A stretch of 64,000 nucleotides of DNA, from contig JANQSN010000049.1 of NCBI GenBank assembly GCA_028284045.1, positions 1 to 64,000 on the forward strand, read 5' to 3'. The translations under genes and the position numbers were made by a program. Source of the DNA: Alphaproteobacteria bacterium. GTDB lineage: Bacteria; Pseudomonadota; Alphaproteobacteria; DSM-16000; Inquilinaceae. Positions 5,205-33,733 of this stretch are shown one piece after another. Within the stretch, counting starts at the first letter, position 1; every line of letters starts with the position of its first letter. The notes below the pieces were generated by a model, which was not told the DNA's origin, searched no databases, and saw nothing but the letters and a program-made list of their open reading frames with translations.

Positions 5205-6587
5205 ATGTCGCAGCCGATCGAGGGCGTGATCTCGGCCTTGGCGAATGACGTCGGCAAGCTGGGGATCGAGATCACCGACGTCGCCGGCCATGTCGACAAC
5301 GTCGCCGCGCGGACGCTGGGTCAGGCCGACGGGTTCACCGAGATCCGGGACTCCGCCGACCGCATCGGCGCGATCGAACGGACCCTGGCGGCCGCGGCGC
5401 GCAGCACCTACGGGGCCGCCCGCGAGACGGCGGACAAGATGGCGCAGTCCTCCGGCCAGGTTGATCAGGCCTTGCAGCATATCCGCGACCTCGTCGACTT
5501 GGTGACCGATGCGGATGCGCGCCTGGGCGGCTTCCAGGAGGCGCTGCAGCGGGTCGGCAAGGTGGCCGCCGCCATCGAGACCATCGCCAAGCAGACCAAC
5601 ATGCTGGCGCTCAACGCGACGATCGAGGCGGCGCGCGCCGGGGCAGCCGGGCGCGGTTTCGCGGTCGTCGCCAGCGAGGTCAAGACCCTCGCCGGCCAGA
5701 CCGCCGCCGCCACCCAGGAGATCGACACCACCTTGAAGGCCCTGGCCAACCAGGCCGAGAGCATCGTCGAGGGCATCGACGCCAGCATGCAGCGCGCGGA
5801 GTCGGTGCGCGACGGCACCGGCGCCATCGCCCTGGTGATCGACGAGGTCGGTCAGTCGATGCGCGGCATCGAGAGCCAGGCGACGGAGATCGAGGCCGCC
5901 GCCACCGAGATCGACGGCAACTGCCGGGTCTTCCACGACCGCGTGGAGAGCCTGAATGCCGATCTCGACTGCTCGTCGCACGACCTCGACGAGGCACGCC
6001 AGCGGCTGAACGGCCTGGTGTCTTTGAGTGAGGGCCTGGTTGGGCTGACCGCGGACTGCGGCGTCGCCACCGTCGACACGCCGTTCATCGCGCGGGCGAA
6101 GGACGCCGCCGCCGCCATCGCCGATCTCTTCGAAGCGGGCCTGGACCGCGGCGAGATCGCCGAGGCGGATCTGTTCGACGAGGACTACCGCCCGATTGCC
6201 GGCACCGATCCCCAACAGGTGCTGACGGGCTTCACCGACTTTACCGACCGCCACCTGCCGGCGGTGCAGGAGGCGCTGTTGCAGGCCGACGGCCGCATCC
6301 TGTTCTGCGCCGCGGTCGACCGGAACGGTTATCTGCCGACCCACAACGCCAAGTTCTCCCAGCCGCAAGGCGATGATCCGCAGTGGAACACCGCGCATTG
6401 CCGGAACCGCCGGCTGTTCAACGACCGCGTCGGCCTGGCGGCGGGCCGCAATACCAAGCCGTTCTTGTTGCAGAACTACCGCCGCGATATGGGCGATGGC
6501 CGCTTCGTGCTGATGAAGGACCTATCCGCCCCGATCGTCGTGCGCGGCCGCCACTGGGGCGGCTTCCGCATCGGCTACGGAACGTAG
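5205..6587 (+). CDS. Soluble methyl-accepting chemotaxis protein
   Basis: A 460-residue chemoreceptor without any hydrophobic membrane segment, so probably cytoplasmic. The signalling hairpin tip is clear: [20 protein letters not shown] followed by [20 protein letters not shown], about residues 127-167, flanked by Ala/Glu-rich coiled coil. The order is unusual, because the signalling module comes first. A C-terminal domain of roughly 140 residues, from about 315, contains [15 protein letters not shown] and [20 protein letters not shown] and resembles the ligand-sensing tails seen on other alphaproteobacterial receptors. It would connect to CheA/CheW, which are not encoded here. The signal is unknown. 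The upstream 154 bases are relatively AT-rich and probably hold its promoter. Confidence 0.88.
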
Positions 6588-6812
6588 GGGCCGGCAGCGG
6601 CGGCACGGGCGAAAGCCGCCTGAGGCGGCGGCTGCTGCTCCATCGGGGAAGAACCGCAGATTCTCCGGCCGTGCGGGTCTCGATGGACAGCTCGGCCGGC
6701 AGAAGACGCCGGTGGTGACCACCGCATAGACGAAGCGGTCGTCATAGGCCCGGTCGCGCCGGGTGACAGCGGCGCGCATCTCGGATTCGGTCGGTGGGTG
6801 GTCGGCGCTCAT
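6522..6812 (-). CDS. Stand-alone Ada-type zinc-binding domain protein
   Basis: A 96-residue protein matching only the N-terminal metal-binding domain of the Ada methyl phosphotriester repair protein: [20 protein letters not shown], then [16 protein letters not shown], then [10 protein letters not shown]. The four zinc cysteines (CRPSC and CRRC) are present, including the Cys that accepts the methyl group in Ada. The AraC-like DNA-binding and alkyltransferase domains of full Ada (about 350 residues) are missing. After CRRC the sequence is low-complexity Ala/Asp. Its last 66 bases overlap the end of the chemoreceptor gene on the opposite strand. It could be a functional single-domain protein, which do occur, or a remnant of a truncated ada. 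Confidence 0.6.
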
Positions 6813-6878: not shown

Positions 6879-8528
6879 TCAGGCGGCGACCAGCAGACCG
6901 TCCCGGCGCAGGGTGTCCAGAATGACCGCCTGGTTCTCGTGGACGAAGCCGTCGCGCAAGCCCAGCAGGTCGCCGCCGAAGCGGTCGGCGTGGCGGGCGA
7001 TCTCCGGGTTGGTCCAGCGCCGGCGCGCGCCCTCGCCATGGCGGGCGACCAGATCGTCGACGATGTCCAGCACCATGGCGTTGCTCTCAGCCGTCAGGCC
7101 GGCCAGCGCGGCCTTGTAGCGATCGAGGGCGGCGAGGCCGGGGAACAGCCGCTCCAGAATGGCGACCTCGTTCCAAGCCCAATTCAAGGCCGGCGACAGC
7201 GCCTTGTGGCCGTGAATCCAGCCGGAGACGTGCAGCACCTCGTTCAGTTCCTGATAGAAGCCGTCGAGGCGCGGGTCGAGGAAGTCATAGTCGGGGTTGC
7301 AGATGTCGCCTTTCAGGCGTCCCTCCGCCGCCAGCCGGTCCTTGATCGGGGTGCCGTCATAGGGGAGCATTCGGCAGAACACGGCCGCCACCGACCCGTC
7401 GCCCGCGATGGCGCGCAGGAAGCCGAGATTGGCGCGGATGCTGGCGAAGCTCGACGACGGGTCGAGCAGCATGAAACCGAACTCGAAGACCAGGCCGAGG
7501 CGCTTCAGGGTGTCCACCGCCGCCAGGTTCTGGGCCACGGTGATGCCCTTGTTCAGCGTGTCCAGCCCGTCTTCGTCGCCCGATTCCAGGCCCATATAGA
7601 CGAGATAGAGCCCGGCCGCCCGCATCTCGGCGAACAGCACCTCGTCCACCGCGTCGGCGCGGCAATTGATCTTCCAGATCGCCCGCCCCGGCAGGGCGGC
7701 CTTATGCAATTCCGCCAGGAACCGGCGGGTCCAGCGCTGCCACACCGGGCCGAACAGCGGGAAGTCGTCGTCCTGGAACAGGAAGATCGACACGCCGCGG
7801 CTGTCGTGCAGCCAGCGCATCTCCTCCACCACCCGGGCGGGATCGCGGGTGCGCACCACCTTGCCCGGCGCGCTGCGGTAGAAGGTGTGGATGGAGCAGA
7901 AGGAGCAGGTGCGCACGCAGCCTCGGCTGGCCAACAGCGGCATGGCGCGGCGGCCCAACACCTGTTCGGCCGGATAGTCGCGGGTCGGCCAGGGCAGGTC
8001 GTCGAGATCGCGCATCAGCGTGCGCGGCGGGGTCTCCTGGGTCGTGCCGTCGCCCGTGCGGTGGACGATCCCGGCCGTGTCCCGCCAATCGATGCCGGCC
8101 GCCAGGCGATCGGCGAGGTCCTTCAGCGTCGTCTCGCCCTCGAAGCGCACGATGCTGTCCAGCCCGGGCATCTCGGCCAGCGTCTGGGCCGGGCTGAGGC
8201 TGGGGAAATGGCCGCCGGTGGTGATATGCGCCTCGATCCCGGCGGCGCGCAGCGCCCGCACCAGTTCCGCGAAACGGCGGATATAGAACTGGAAGATCAG
8301 CGACAGGCCGATCAGCAGCGGGCCTTCGTCCCGGGCGGTCTGCACGATCTCCGCCGTCGGACGCTCGACATCGACCACGACGACGCGGTAGCCGGCGTCT
8401 CGGAGCGTCGCGGTCAGATAGCCGAGGCCGAGATTGCCCTGGTCGAGGAAGCCGACCAGCAGGATCGGCGCCGGCCGCGGTGCGGGCACGGAATCGCTTG
8501 CAAGAGCGCCGGGGGGCGTCGGGTGCAT
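6879..8528 (-). CDS. B12-binding-domain radical SAM protein
   Basis: A 549-residue enzyme with an N-terminal cobalamin-binding domain (about residues 20-150, opening PILLVGFLDQGNLGLGYLTA) and a radical SAM core. The core has the cluster motif GCVRTCSFCS, a CX3CX2C arrangement near residue 203, and later VYMGLESGDEDGLDTLNKGI typical of the family's SAM-binding strand. The start is placed at MHPTPPG because AGGAGG lies six bases upstream; an in-frame ATG ten codons earlier has no such site. The C-terminal 150 residues have no assigned role. Members methylate unreactive carbons or rearrange lipids, cofactors and peptides. The only close partner is the 71-residue protein just upstream, so the substrate may be that protein, a lipid or something else. 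Confidence 0.88.
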   Translation of the reverse strand: MHPTPPGALASDSVPAPRPAPILLVGFLDQGNLGLGYLTATLRDAGYRVVVVDVERPTAEIVQTARDEGPLLIGLSLIFQFYIRRFAELVRALRAAGIEAHITTGGHFPSLSPAQTLAEMPGLDSIVRFEGETTLKDLADRLAAGIDWRDTAGIVHRTGDGTTQETPPRTLMRDLDDLPWPTRDYPAEQVLGRRAMPLLASRGCVRTCSFCSIHTFYRSAPGKVVRTRDPARVVEEMRWLHDSRGVSIFLFQDDDFPLFGPVWQRWTRRFLAELHKAALPGRAIWKINCRADAVDEVLFAEMRAAGLYLVYMGLESGDEDGLDTLNKGITVAQNLAAVDTLKRLGLVFEFGFMLLDPSSSFASIRANLGFLRAIAGDGSVAAVFCRMLPYDGTPIKDRLAAEGRLKGDICNPDYDFLDPRLDGFYQELNEVLHVSGWIHGHKALSPALNWAWNEVAILERLFPGLAALDRYKAALAGLTAESNAMVLDIVDDLVARHGEGARRRWTNPEIARHADRFGGDLLGLRDGFVHENQAVILDTLRRDGLLVAA

Positions 8529-8621
8529 GGCAACCTCCTGCGCGCCCGGGGTGGTCAAGGGACCGGTCGGCCAGGCCGCGAGGCGCCGAAAGGCTCCGGC
8601 GACCCGGCCGGGGTCACGGCG

Positions 8622-8837
8622 TCACCGGATCCGATCGAGCAGGTTCATCGTTTCCTTCGCGGCCTCCAACTCGGCCTGCAGGATGCGGCTGTGCTTTTCG
8701 AGCTGGACCCGGGTGAAGTCGCGGGCGAGTTCGACGGTGAGATGTTCCGACAGCCACGGCGGCACCGGGTCCCACCACCACTTCGGATTGAACCGCAGGA
8801 TGTTTTCCGCGAGCTGCAGATCGGAGAATTGCGCCAT
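8622..8837 (-). CDS. 71-residue protein upstream of the B12 radical SAM gene
   Basis: A small gene with a strong ribosome site (GGAGGGG, then ATC, then ATG) that ends 93 bases before the radical SAM start on the same strand. The product begins MAQFSDLQLAENILRFNPKW, has an aromatic/proline patch WWWDPVPPW near residues 20-28, and ends in a charged helix (RVQLEKHSRILQAELEAAKE). There is no signal peptide, membrane segment or cysteine. I do not recognise the family. Upstream DNA (about 8860-8911) is markedly AT-rich with a TTGACA box at 8906-8911 on this strand, but I cannot find a good -10. Its position suggests a partner or peptide substrate of the radical SAM enzyme; this is inference. Confidence 0.7.
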   Translation of the reverse strand: MAQFSDLQLAENILRFNPKWWWDPVPPWLSEHLTVELARDFTRVQLEKHSRILQAELEAAKETMNLLDRIR

Positions 8838-9044
8838 GATGCCCCTCCAATAGTGCGGGATCGGGGATTTTTTAGTGAATAGAGGTGATCATAAGAATTC
8901 TTTCTTGTCAACGAGCCGAGTTGTCGTCTCCGGCGGGCAATACCACCCACAGGCGGCCGGGCACGGCCAACGCCGCTGCAAAAGGCGCGCGCCTGCGTCC
9001 TCTTGCCGCGTGTCGGTCGGGTACGGTGATAGCAGGAGTCGGGA

Positions 9045-9989
9045 TCAGATGGCGGCCAGGTGATCGACCCAGCTTGGGTCACGCATGATGGCGCGCATGC
9101 GCATCAGCTTCCACGCCCCGTACTTGAAGAAATCGAAGTCGAGGGTGGAGACCTGCTGTTGGACGAAGGACCACAGCGCCCATTTCACGTCGGCCAGCGC
9201 CTTGTGCACCGTCACGCGGCCGACGATCTCCGGCCGGACCTCGCCGAAATACGCCTCGATCAGCTCATGTTCGATCCGGGGCGTATAGAACATCTCGCCG
9301 AACCAGATGCCGAGGTCGTAGCAGCGGTCGTTGTTGGACGCGTATTCGTAGTCGATCAGCATGATCGTCTTGGCGTCGTCGACCATGAAATTGCCGGCCA
9401 TCGGATCGTTGAAGCAGGGCGCCCAGTCGATTCCCGATGCCTCCAGCGCCTGGCGGGCCAGGCGGTACTGCCGCATCATCCAGGGATAGTCGGGGGGCCG
9501 CCAGCCGCCCAACGCGTCGATCTGGCGATCGTGCTCCTCGATCATGTCGAAGACGGTCTTGGTGAGGTCCAGGTCGCCCACCTTGTGGAACGCCCGATAG
9601 GCATCAATGGCGGCTAGGCGGATCGCCCGGTCGTCGAAATCGCTGTTGGTGCAGGCGCGCCGGTCGGGGATGAAGTCGTTGATCTCGATCCCGCGGTCGT
9701 AGAGATCGTCATAGACCATCGGGCCGACGCCCGCCCGGCCGGCGCGGCGGCTGGCGTCGAAGGCGGCGGCCCGGTCGATGAACATCTCGGTCCCCTTGCC
9801 GGGGATCTTGACGAAGTAGCGCCGGTCGTCCTCCGTCGTGCGGACCATCCAGTTGACATTGCTGATGCCGCCCAGCACCGGGCGGTAGCGCACCGGCCGG
9901 CCGGCGAACAGCGGGGCGGCGGCGATCGCCGTCTCCAGCTCGCGTTCCGCCGCGCTCGCCGCCTGTCCGGGGGTTTTTTCCAGGATCAT
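9045..9989 (-). CDS. Choline-kinase-like phosphotransferase (APH family), copy 2
   Basis: A 314-residue kinase of the aminoglycoside phosphotransferase/choline kinase fold. The N-lobe shows GGISNVNWMV and a Lys in RRYFVKIPGKGTEMFIDR. The catalytic loop FNDPMAGNFMVDD near residue 190 is followed by the metal-binding IDYEYASNNDRCYDLG. These are close to LicA-type choline kinases, so the substrate is probably a small amino alcohol or sugar. The start at MILEKTPGQ is supported by GGGAGGG just upstream. It lies 13 bases after its paralogue at 10003 and is the last gene of the minus-strand transporter operon, so it probably acts on an imported compound or its hydrolysis product. Confidence 0.8.
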   Translation of the reverse strand: MILEKTPGQAASAAERELETAIAAAPLFAGRPVRYRPVLGGISNVNWMVRTTEDDRRYFVKIPGKGTEMFIDRAAAFDASRRAGRAGVGPMVYDDLYDRGIEINDFIPDRRACTNSDFDDRAIRLAAIDAYRAFHKVGDLDLTKTVFDMIEEHDRQIDALGGWRPPDYPWMMRQYRLARQALEASGIDWAPCFNDPMAGNFMVDDAKTIMLIDYEYASNNDRCYDLGIWFGEMFYTPRIEHELIEAYFGEVRPEIVGRVTVHKALADVKWALWSFVQQQVSTLDFDFFKYGAWKLMRMRAIMRDPSWVDHLAAI

Positions 9990-10002
9990 CCGGTATCCCT
10001 CC

Positions 10003-10965
10003 CTACAGCCGGCGCAGCCGTTCCTCGAACCGCGGGTCGCCGACCGCCATGCGGCAGCGCAGCAACCGCCATTCGCTGTATTTGCGGAACTCCACATAGG
10101 TGCGCGGCGACTGCCGGGCAGCCAGCGCCGCCCACAGCGCCCACATCAGGTCGTCGGCCACGCCATAGGCGGTGACGCGGTCGAGGGTCGCCGGGTCGGC
10201 GCGCCCGCACCAATGCTCCACCGCCGGTGCCCGCGCGCTGTCGAAGGGATGCGCCTCGGTCAGCAGGACGGCGAGGTCGTAGACCGGGTCGTTCATCCCG
10301 GCGCGGTCGTAGTCGACCAGTAGGACCGCCCCGTCGGGACCGATCATCACGTTGGACGACACGCCGTCATTGCGGCACGGCGCGCTGTCGGCGCCGGCGG
10401 CGGCCACCGCCGCCTCCACATCGCCGAGCGCCACTTCCAGCCACCAGAGATCGGCCGGCAGGTCCACCCCGGCGCCGCGTGCCCGTGCGGCGAGGTCGCG
10501 CGCCTCGGCGAACACGTCGAAGCGGTGCGCCAGCGGCCGGCCGTCGTGCAGGCGTTGGGCGGCGTCCAGCGCGCCGGCCATTACCTGGTCGTCCTGGAGG
10601 TCGGCCATCGTCGCTGTCCGCCAGCCCTCGCCCAAGAGCGCGAAGGTGGCCGTACCCAGGCCGGCATCGGCCCACAGCAGTTGCGGTCCCGCGCCGGTCT
10701 CCGCCGCCCGCTCCGCCCCGGCGATGGCCGCGGCGGGGTCGAAATAGGGCCGCATGTCCTCGCGCAGTACCTTCAACACCGTGGGCGGCGCGCCGTCGGC
10801 CTCGACGCGCCAGACGGCGCTTTCGACGCCGCGATGCACCGGGGAGACGACATCCGGGCAGACCAGCGCATAGCGTGCATTCAGGCCCGACCAGGCTGGG
10901 TTGGCCTCGATGGCGGCCTCCGCCGCGCACTCGTCGGCGGTTTCGGCTTGCCCGAGATGCTTCAT
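10003..10965 (-). CDS. Choline-kinase-like phosphotransferase (APH family), copy 1
   Basis: A 320-residue paralogue of the next gene, with the same fold and the same ending (a WALW segment, then a Lys/Arg-rich MRMRAIMRDP-like tail, here RCRMAVGDPRF). The catalytic loop reads CRNDGVSSNVMIGPDG near residue 195 and the metal motif is LLVDYDRAGMNDPVYDLA. The two copies are clearly diverged, which suggests either two different substrates or a heteromeric kinase. It sits 21 bases after the M20 hydrolase gene in the operon. The annotation as antibiotic resistance would be misleading: there is no sign of an aminoglycoside role in this catabolic context. Confidence 0.78.
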   Translation of the reverse strand: MKHLGQAETADECAAEAAIEANPAWSGLNARYALVCPDVVSPVHRGVESAVWRVEADGAPPTVLKVLREDMRPYFDPAAAIAGAERAAETGAGPQLLWADAGLGTATFALLGEGWRTATMADLQDDQVMAGALDAAQRLHDGRPLAHRFDVFAEARDLAARARGAGVDLPADLWWLEVALGDVEAAVAAAGADSAPCRNDGVSSNVMIGPDGAVLLVDYDRAGMNDPVYDLAVLLTEAHPFDSARAPAVEHWCGRADPATLDRVTAYGVADDLMWALWAALAARQSPRTYVEFRKYSEWRLLRCRMAVGDPRFEERLRRL

Positions 10966-19694: not shown

Positions 19695-19810
19695 CCCATA
19701 ATGCGCCTAGGGTTCCGGTCGCCAATGGCGATGCCTGGTCCGAGAGGGGCACTCCCGGCCGGTGACCACCGGCCGGAGCCACGGCGGGACAAAAACCCGG
19801 GAGACTCGAT
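19695..19810 (+). promoter_or_regulatory. Guanidine-I (ykkC) riboswitch
   Basis: The leader between the DeoR gene and the next operon carries the conserved blocks of the guanidine-I riboswitch in order: CTAGGGTTCCGG (19707-19718), CTGGTCCGAGAGGG (19735-19748), a variable GGCCGGTGACCACCGGCC hairpin, and ACGGCGGGACAAAAACCCGG plus GAGA (19781-19804). These are the ligand pocket blocks of the class and I know no other RNA with this combination. A GC-rich hairpin at about 19820-19847 before the ribosome site may be the expression platform. It precedes an importer and a guanidine-hydrolase-like gene, so guanidine should switch the operon on. The rest of 19569-19920 shows no gene. Confidence 0.92.
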
Positions 19811-19920: not shown

Positions 19921-20997
19921 ATGCCCGTCCGCATCCCCGTTGCCAAGTTCTTGAGCATGGCCGCTCTGGCCGCCGTGCTGGCGTTGGCCGGCACGGTCCA
20001 GGCCCAAGCGCAGGAGCGCACAAGCTTCCGGATCGCCTGGTCCATCTATGTCGGCTGGATGCCGTGGGGCTATGCCGCCGATGCCGGGATCGTCGACCGC
20101 TGGGCCGACCGCTACGGCATCGACATCGAGGTCGTGCAGATCAACGACTATATCGAGAGCATCAACCAATACACCGCCGGCGCCTTCGACGGCTGCGTCA
20201 TGACCAATATGGACGCGCTGACCATCCCGGCGGTCGGCGGCGTCGACAGCACGGCCTTGATCGTCGGCGACTTCTCCAACGGCAATGACGGCATCGTGTC
20301 GAAGACCGCGGCGACGCTGGAGGCGCTGGCGGGCACCACGATCAATCTGGTGGAGCTGTCGGTCTCGCACTACCTGCTGGCCCGGGCGCTCGACAGCGTC
20401 GGGCTGGTGGAGCGCGACGTGACGGTGGTCAACACGTCGGATGCCGACATGGTCTCGGTGTTCACCTCCACCGACGACGTCACGACCGTGGTCACCTGGA
20501 ACCCGCTGTTGAGCGAGGTCGCGGCCTTCCCCGACGCCACGCCGCTGTTCGATTCCAGCCAGATCCCCGGCGAGATCATCGACATGATGGTGGTGAACTC
20601 CGAGGTGCTGGAGGCCAACCCCGATTTCGGCCGCGCGTTGGTTGGGGCCTGGTACGAGACCATGGCGCTGATGTCCGCCGGGGACGAGGCGGCGCTGGCC
20701 GCGCTGACGGAGATGGCCGTCGCGTCGGGCACGGATCTGGCGGGCTACCGGGCGCAGCTCGCCAGCACCCAGATGTTCTATCAGGCGGCCGATGCCGTCG
20801 ACTTCACCCTCAGCCCCGATCTGATCGAGACCATGGACCTCGTCCGTCAGTTCTCCGCCGACCATGGGTTGATGGGCGGTGGCGTCGACAGTGTCGGCAT
20901 CGCCTTTCCCGACGGCAGCGTGCTGGGCGATCCGGAGAATGTGACCCTGCGGTTCACGGAAGCGTTCATGCAGTTGGCGGCGGACGACGCGCTCTGA
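19921..20997 (+). CDS. NitT/TauT-type ABC substrate-binding protein, probably for guanidine
   Basis: A 358-residue periplasmic binding protein with a Sec signal (about residues 1-31, ending VQAQAQE). The mature part starts SFRIAWSIYVGWMPWGYAAD and has DGCVMTNMDALTIPAVGGVD near 93 and VTTVVTWNPLLSEV near 189, the pattern of NitT/TauT and taurine/nitrate-type receptors. The ATG is preceded by AGGAGAGG. It is the first gene behind the guanidine-I riboswitch and is followed by its permease and ATPase and by a ureohydrolase. That context makes guanidine, or a guanidine derivative, the likely ligand. The family itself would not tell this. Confidence 0.88.
   Translation: MPVRIPVAKFLSMAALAAVLALAGTVQAQAQERTSFRIAWSIYVGWMPWGYAADAGIVDRWADRYGIDIEVVQINDYIESINQYTAGAFDGCVMTNMDALTIPAVGGVDSTALIVGDFSNGNDGIVSKTAATLEALAGTTINLVELSVSHYLLARALDSVGLVERDVTVVNTSDADMVSVFTSTDDVTTVVTWNPLLSEVAAFPDATPLFDSSQIPGEIIDMMVVNSEVLEANPDFGRALVGAWYETMALMSAGDEAALAALTEMAVASGTDLAGYRAQLASTQMFYQAADAVDFTLSPDLIETMDLVRQFSADHGLMGGGVDSVGIAFPDGSVLGDPENVTLRFTEAFMQLAADDAL

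Positions 20998-32020: not shown

Positions 32021-33733
<1,713 letters not shown>

Follow-up and report, generated by a model that had tools for sequence, protein, structure and literature searches.

A small protein family encoded beside an unnamed clade of cobalamin-binding radical SAM enzymes in scattered bacteria

Many cobalamin-radical SAM enzymes have, to our knowledge, no assigned function, and few have been tied to a second protein. The class 1 enzyme OxsB, involved in oxetanocin A biosynthesis, combines a B12-binding domain, a radical SAM core and a helical domain, and works with OxsA, a partner of the HD-domain type. We know of no small partner for the families of the tetrapyrrole cyclase BchE or of the hopanoid enzymes HpnJ and HpnR. 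ApyD, the B12-radical SAM peptide C-methylase of aminopyruvatide biosynthesis, belongs to a cluster that includes its precursor peptide gene; it yields β-methyltyrosine and carries an RRE, and an MNIO, a P450 and a methyltransferase are encoded in its cluster as well (PMC11117315). In clavusporin biosynthesis, a B12-radical SAM enzyme is accompanied by a dedicated DUF5825 neighbour, which, on our reading of the source, is a partner and not a substrate (PMC12257519).

The locus described here lies in a 64,000-nucleotide stretch (the window) of an alphaproteobacterial contig and comprises two genes on the minus strand. The larger (6879..8528, -) encodes a 549-residue protein. Its ATG at 8528, with an AGGAGG before it, seems a likelier start than the TTG at 8558, which would add 10 residues (559 in total). 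The product had been called a B12 radical SAM enzyme by a sequence-only reading of the DNA, and Pfam agrees: the protein matches B12-binding (PF02310, 2e-22) and Radical_SAM (PF04055, 2.8e-16). The B12-binding Rossmann domain is N-terminal, as is also found by fold alignment to OxsB, TsrM, CysS and TokK, and the cysteines of the CxxxCxxC motif (C204, C208, C211) are invariant in 13/13 aligned enzymes. Judged by its domains, this motif and its predicted fold, it is a class 1 cobalamin-radical SAM enzyme. OxsB is the closest solved relative both by profile (E 2e-31) and by fold (Z 32.1 over 491 residues, rmsd 4.9), followed by AprD4 (28.5), MgmA (28.0), CysS (26.9) and TsrM (26.4); as all of these belong to one broad fold, such neighbours say nothing about the substrate.

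The window enzyme shares with OxsB the overall architecture but only ~20% identity, and it differs from OxsB in the extra N-terminal domain that the latter possesses (PMC13331322). A nearly invariant residue, Ile78, faces OxsB Asn186 in the HMMER alignment (the residue number was counted by hand on the alignment). Asn186 of OxsB holds waters under the cobalt, and this place is taken by Trp76 in TokK and by Arg69 in TsrM (PMC13331322). Ile78 would thus be a hydrophobic, non-liganding residue under the cobalt, just as Trp76 is in the radical methylase TokK. By analogy with its subclass, the enzyme may be a methylase.

The protein falls below the cut-off of every NCBIfam model among the matches listed (25 of the 33 matched). 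The highest-scoring named profiles are those of BchE (118 bits against a cut-off of 481), HpnJ (103 against 577.6) and HpnR (92 against 650), while ApyD (90 against 750) and a ladderane-type profile (64 against 360) follow. On these cut-offs, membership of the hopanoid or bacteriochlorophyll enzymes is rejected, and the sequence-only reading, which had named a known lipid or hopanoid pathway as the finding that would speak against it, is not contradicted on this point. A PADLOC search returned one weak match for the enzyme, PDC-M51A (E 2e-5).

The scan of a collection of 84,980 species genomes with six octapeptide patterns returned 11 relatives of the enzyme, all from metagenome-assembled genomes and 37-62% identical over the best segment. 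Other searches were made in genome samples, which added L023 (58%), L024 (46%) and L030 (50% over residues 18-428), resulting in a clade of 15 members including that of the window. In a maximum-likelihood tree of 28 rows, 14 clade members separate from 14 outgroup rows with branch support of 100/98; this tree is midpoint-rooted, omits L016 (two fragments) and includes several long outgroup branches and four rows of unusual composition.

Directly upstream of the enzyme gene, a 71-residue protein is encoded at 8622..8837 (-). Its ATG is preceded at 4 bases by a ribosome-binding site, ggagggg (8842..8848, -), and a gap of 93 bases (8529..8621, -) separates the two genes, which share the same frame with no in-frame stop past the TGA of the small gene. 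The shared strand, the gene order, a strong ribosome site and a WWWDPVPPW stretch, located at residues 20-28 (8754..8780, -), are all as previously read from the sequence.

That the two genes belong together is supported by their relatives. The upstream region could be inspected in 13 of the 15 clade members, since L013 and L016 are cut before it, and a recognisable relative of the small protein is encoded immediately upstream, on the same strand, in 11 of these 13 (the window, L006-L012, L014, L023 and L024). The 11 paired proteins are 66-86 residues long, their start codons having been picked by hand where longer frames exist (L006, L007, L009, L010, L014 and L023), and the gap to the enzyme start spans 12-99 bases. 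A GGAG is present within 22 bases before the start of 11 of the 13 upstream ORFs, the exceptions being those of L015 and L030. Leave-one-out profiles searched against the ORFs of the locus left out put the small ORF in first place in 11 of 12 tests, with E-values ranging from 0.0012 (L014, the weakest) to 8.5e-22 (L011), L009 and L010 being left out jointly.

The pairing is confirmed at 11 of the 13 loci; of the other two, L015 counts as a miss and L030 as undecided. In the Bacteroidota-labelled L015, whose enzyme is ~37% identical, the place of the small protein is taken by an unrelated ORF of 75 residues without GGAG (L015:4393-4620, +), which the small-protein profile does not find. In L030, a 104-residue ORF (L030:2796-3107, -) lies upstream of the sister enzyme and contains a run of seven Ile, a stretch rich in Gly and the sequence GDPGP; it is missed by the profile of the others, with which it shares only this DPxP-containing stretch and the general shape, and it may be either a diverged partner or a precursor that bears repeats. 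The poly-Ile segment is reminiscent of cyclopropylglycine peptides; the conversion of Val to cyclopropylglycine has been described for an enzyme of another radical SAM subfamily (PMC9062424).

Co-occurrence was assessed in two overlapping samples. Among 398 genomes of the phylum, the small protein (E 9e-19 or better) and the enzyme (at least 46% identical) are found in the same three, the other 395 having neither at those thresholds, and five further genomes hold enzyme relatives at 32-35% only. Among 385 genomes of the class, both proteins are found in the window's own genome only. Weak profile matches were judged to be due to chance: four in the class sample, lying within ORFs of 128-866 residues (E 3e-4 to 8e-3), and two more in the 398-genome sample, lying within ORFs of 295 and 2830 residues (E ~2e-3). 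These six cover only part of the profile, and there is no enzyme within flanks of ~1.5 kb. A small gene occurring widely without its enzyme, the other finding that would have spoken against the initial reading, was thus not encountered convincingly in either sample. The window's genome itself has one convincing copy; four further weak matches (E 0.05 or worse) were attributed to chance, one of them, L003, in a frame overlapping a HemB-like ORF. When 60 relatives were searched with the single small-protein sequence, only that of the window was recovered. Five outgroup loci are devoid of this small protein: L025-L027 adjoin a methyltransferase-like gene and L028-L029 an Hsp70-like gene (types assigned by eye). 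Over 12 loci, the mean identity is 26% for the small proteins and 49% for the enzymes, and a Mantel test finds the matrices of identities correlated (r 0.79, p 0.0001), a supportive result only, as it includes L030 with its unconfirmed small ORF and the near-duplicates L009/L010.

The small ORF is a real gene: relatives are encoded directly upstream of 10 further orthologous enzymes, the leave-one-out profiles rank it first, and its protein sequence is under selection in the sole close pair. In L009/L010, the small gene exhibits a dN of 0.060 and a dS of 0.479 (NG86), that is a dN/dS of ~0.13; the corresponding values of the enzyme gene are 0.025 and 0.328 (NG86). The protein has a disordered N-terminus, a LxFxPxWxxDPVPPW motif and a long predicted helix. 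Predicted alone, it displays a poorly ordered N-terminus, a short helix (27-32) and one helix spanning residues 35-70, the block pLDDT over residues 31-70 being 79-95. In the alignment of the 11 confirmed members, Asp23 and Pro24 are invariant, Pro26 is kept in 10/11 and Trp28 in 9/11 (Leu in L008, a gap in L014 in the alignment used). Leu14, Leu33 and Leu46 are each kept in 9/11, Phe16 and Pro18 each in 8/11, and column 34 is Asp in 8/11 and Thr in the window protein. The aromatic patch that first drew attention is present, but the tryptophans before Asp23 are mostly not conserved, and the conserved element is Asp-Pro-x-Pro. Along the helix, columns 33, 38, 41, 44, 46, 66 and 67 are mostly hydrophobic, which suggests a contact with another protein, although the helix shows only a weak periodicity (at 100 degrees p is 0.02, and 162 degrees scores equally high).

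At E-values up to 1, the window protein has no match in Pfam, NCBIfam, PHROGs or PADLOC. When the 12 aligned small proteins are searched, Pfam lists only two matches, each for a single member: MscS_porin for L030, the best at E 0.004, and Abi_2 for one member at E 0.3. Those of PHROGs and NCBIfam, also limited to single members, have E-values of 0.04 or worse and were disregarded. DUF5825, the domain of the clavusporin neighbour, is absent in 12/12 (Pfam, E up to 1). By these searches, the small proteins appear to form a family that convincingly matches none of the four libraries. The pair had been thought to lack a prior description, and none was found in the open-access literature searched. 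As far as sequence comparison goes, an unnamed clade of cobalamin-radical SAM enzymes has a small partner family that lies outside these libraries, the two forming a two-gene unit in records that carry the labels of four phyla.

The distribution of this unit is patchy. Clade members come from records labelled Pseudomonadota, Acidobacteriota (L008), Nitrospirota (L012), Myxococcota (L014) and Bacteroidota (L015). The first four of these labels cover the records with both genes, L007, L008, L012 and L014 being contigs of 3-23 kb in which misbinning is possible. At E 1e-60, the enzyme is found in 1/17 genomes of the window's order, 1/385 of its class, 2/99 of the family of L023 and 1/48 of the order of L024, the starting genomes being counted each time. 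Since the distribution is patchy and the enzyme tree does not follow taxonomy, we infer from the sequences that the pair spread by horizontal transfer. Plasmids contain no ortholog of the enzyme, the best match being 35% identical over 70% of the query, and one viral contig encodes a distant relative (27%) with no such small ORF upstream.

Around the pair, almost nothing is shared. Neighbourhoods of 13 loci, up to ~6 kb on each side (flanks are short in L008, L023, L024 and L030), were compared by blastp at 1e-6 for ORFs of at least 80 residues, a procedure in which unrelated peptidases or transporters of single loci would not show. Besides the pair and shadow frames, they have in common only the families of the near-identical L009 and L010 and one match between L006 and L015 (27% identity across 402 residues, judged by eye to be kinase-like). 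Among ORFs of this size, the 13 neighbourhoods have no homologous peptidase, exporter or recognition protein in common. Within the flanks compared, the conserved unit is thus the two genes alone, a stand-alone cassette, which fits an enzyme needing no pathway partners.

Because the genes are adjacent in nearly all relatives that could be checked and co-occur in scattered bacteria, the two products probably function together, either as the two parts of a single enzyme or with the small protein as the target that the enzyme modifies. The sequence-only reading had offered the same two options, a peptide substrate in a RiPP system or an accessory subunit. The absence of common companions and the long helix at the end of the protein have weakened the RiPP side. 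In our weighting, the subunit receives just under half, the substrate a little over a third, and other or unforeseen explanations the remaining fifth.

The reading we prefer, at just short of an even chance, is that the small protein is a dedicated accessory subunit of a self-contained two-component enzyme. It is favoured over a substrate mainly because the loci lack conserved RiPP companions and the small protein lacks a variable core at its C-terminus. The large protein, with its Rossmann B12 domain, CxxxCxxC radical SAM core and C-terminal helical domain, would most likely methylate or otherwise remake an unactivated carbon. The long helix of the small protein would dock on the enzyme, placing the WxDPxPW segment at or near the entrance of the active site, where it may serve substrate binding or stability. 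The substrate, for which no nearby gene would be responsible, is probably a widespread metabolite, a lipid or a macromolecule, so that the pair could work wherever horizontal transfer lands it. An AlphaFold2 model of a read-through fusion, translated through the stop of the small gene, bears on the docking step: the enzyme is well modelled (mean pLDDT 83), yet there is no sign of docking, and the helix has a block pLDDT of 74-83 over residues 41-70 against 88-95 alone, a comparison judged on pLDDT between runs that used different alignments (8 versus 12 small-protein rows). Complex prediction had been proposed with the initial reading; in this form it does not help to tell subunit from substrate. 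The lack of a recognisable partner in L015 and the weak periodicity of the helix also speak against a subunit. If the small protein is a subunit, the pair constitutes a cobalamin-radical SAM enzyme of two components, one of them from a family for which no description was found. The pair of the clavusporin pathway resembles it in associating an enzyme with a dedicated neighbour, but here no RiPP neighbours are common to the loci.

A substantial, though minority, chance is given to the small protein being the substrate: the enzyme would C-methylate or cross-link residues of the DPxPW segment, the C-terminal helix would be the recognition part, and the product would either remain in the cell as a modified protein or be released as a short peptide through the action of a general protease. 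The gene order and the strong ribosome site of its own are those of RiPP precursors, and the small ORF of precursor size (66-86 residues in 11/13) occupies the usual place of one. Also in keeping with a substrate, one short segment, with D23-P24 invariant, is far more conserved than the rest. Related B12-radical SAM enzymes do modify peptides, as in the case of ApyD (PMC11117315), and the ApyD profile is matched by all 13 aligned members, by that of the window far below the cut-off. Distant homologs (27-30% identical) likewise adjoin very small ORFs, of 44 residues with an exporter in L033 and of 55 residues with a peptidase in L032. Against a substrate, the neighbourhoods compared share no homologous recognition element, peptidase or exporter of the kind conserved in a canonical RiPP cluster. 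The companions of ApyD have no counterpart common to these loci, and Pfam, admittedly a weak test, finds in the window enzyme no RRE-type domain such as ApyD carries (PMC11117315). Moreover, the conserved motif lies towards the N-terminus, what comes after it is a long charged helix and not a variable core, and the window's genome has a single convincing copy.

A specific form of the substrate reading, to which we give about one chance in three, would be a minimal mobile protein-modifying cassette: an enzyme and its ~70-residue client, subject to radical C-methylation or cross-linking at the invariant Asp-Pro-x-Pro (mostly followed by an aromatic residue), lacking a conserved exporter, peptidase or recognition protein and spread horizontally over at least four phyla. 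If the small protein is indeed a substrate, the pair represents a minimal peptide-modifying system that would be overlooked by cluster mining keyed to exporters, peptidases and recognition domains.

The loci of the two distant homologs deserve a description of their own. On a Rhizobium leguminosarum plasmid (L033:4796-6386, +), the 44-residue ORF is located 4 bases upstream of the enzyme relative, which is followed by an MFS transporter, and the whole looks like a small RiPP operon. A Burkholderia stagnalis plasmid (L032:1170-7748, +) harbors three enzyme-like radical SAM genes in a row, together with the 55-residue ORF and with genes for a peptidase of the insulinase family and for AzlC/AzlD transporters, possibly another RiPP cluster.

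It is unlikely that the small protein is a short chaperone or maturation factor loading cobalamin or an iron-sulfur cluster into this enzyme only. The close pairing of the genes would fit, and helper proteins are known for other radical enzymes, but the window protein contains no Cys and only two His, and its enzyme's relatives TokK, TsrM and OxsB are not known to require a loading factor of this kind for activity. Less probable again, and in our view very improbable, is that the genes are neighbours by common ancestry with unrelated functions. Only 11 pairs are confirmed, which leaves some room for such a view; nevertheless, the linkage has persisted through an almost complete change of surroundings, in neighbourhoods otherwise unrelated, and neither of the overlapping samples of 385 and 398 genomes holds a convincing lone small gene. 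Finally, the short, Trp-rich upstream ORF on the same strand might recall a tryptophan attenuator, a regulatory leader peptide of the enzyme gene, but this is largely refuted by a conserved amino-acid sequence in which most Trp are not kept, by the dN/dS seen in the one close pair, and by Rfam, which at gathering scores detects no leader and no cobalamin or other riboswitch near the pair in the window and 11 loci.

The window contains several other features. Downstream of the enzyme, a 96-residue ORF (6522-6812, -) possesses the Ada metal-binding domain only (8e-26), the rest of Ada not being in frame. Upstream of the pair, two tandem choline-kinase/APH-like kinases (9045-9998 and 10003-10965, -) match GntI weakly (97 and 67 bits against a cut-off of 357); after them, 2-9 kb from the pair, come an M20 peptidase and an ABC importer of the oligopeptide type. 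A match to the 5' ureB sRNA family (33293-33580, +, 107 bits) would imply urease genes at that place. A Guanidine-I riboswitch (19696-19805, +, 83.7 bits) precedes the gene of an NMT1-like substrate-binding protein (19924-20997, +), an arrangement that suggests a guanidine-type nitrogen uptake operon.
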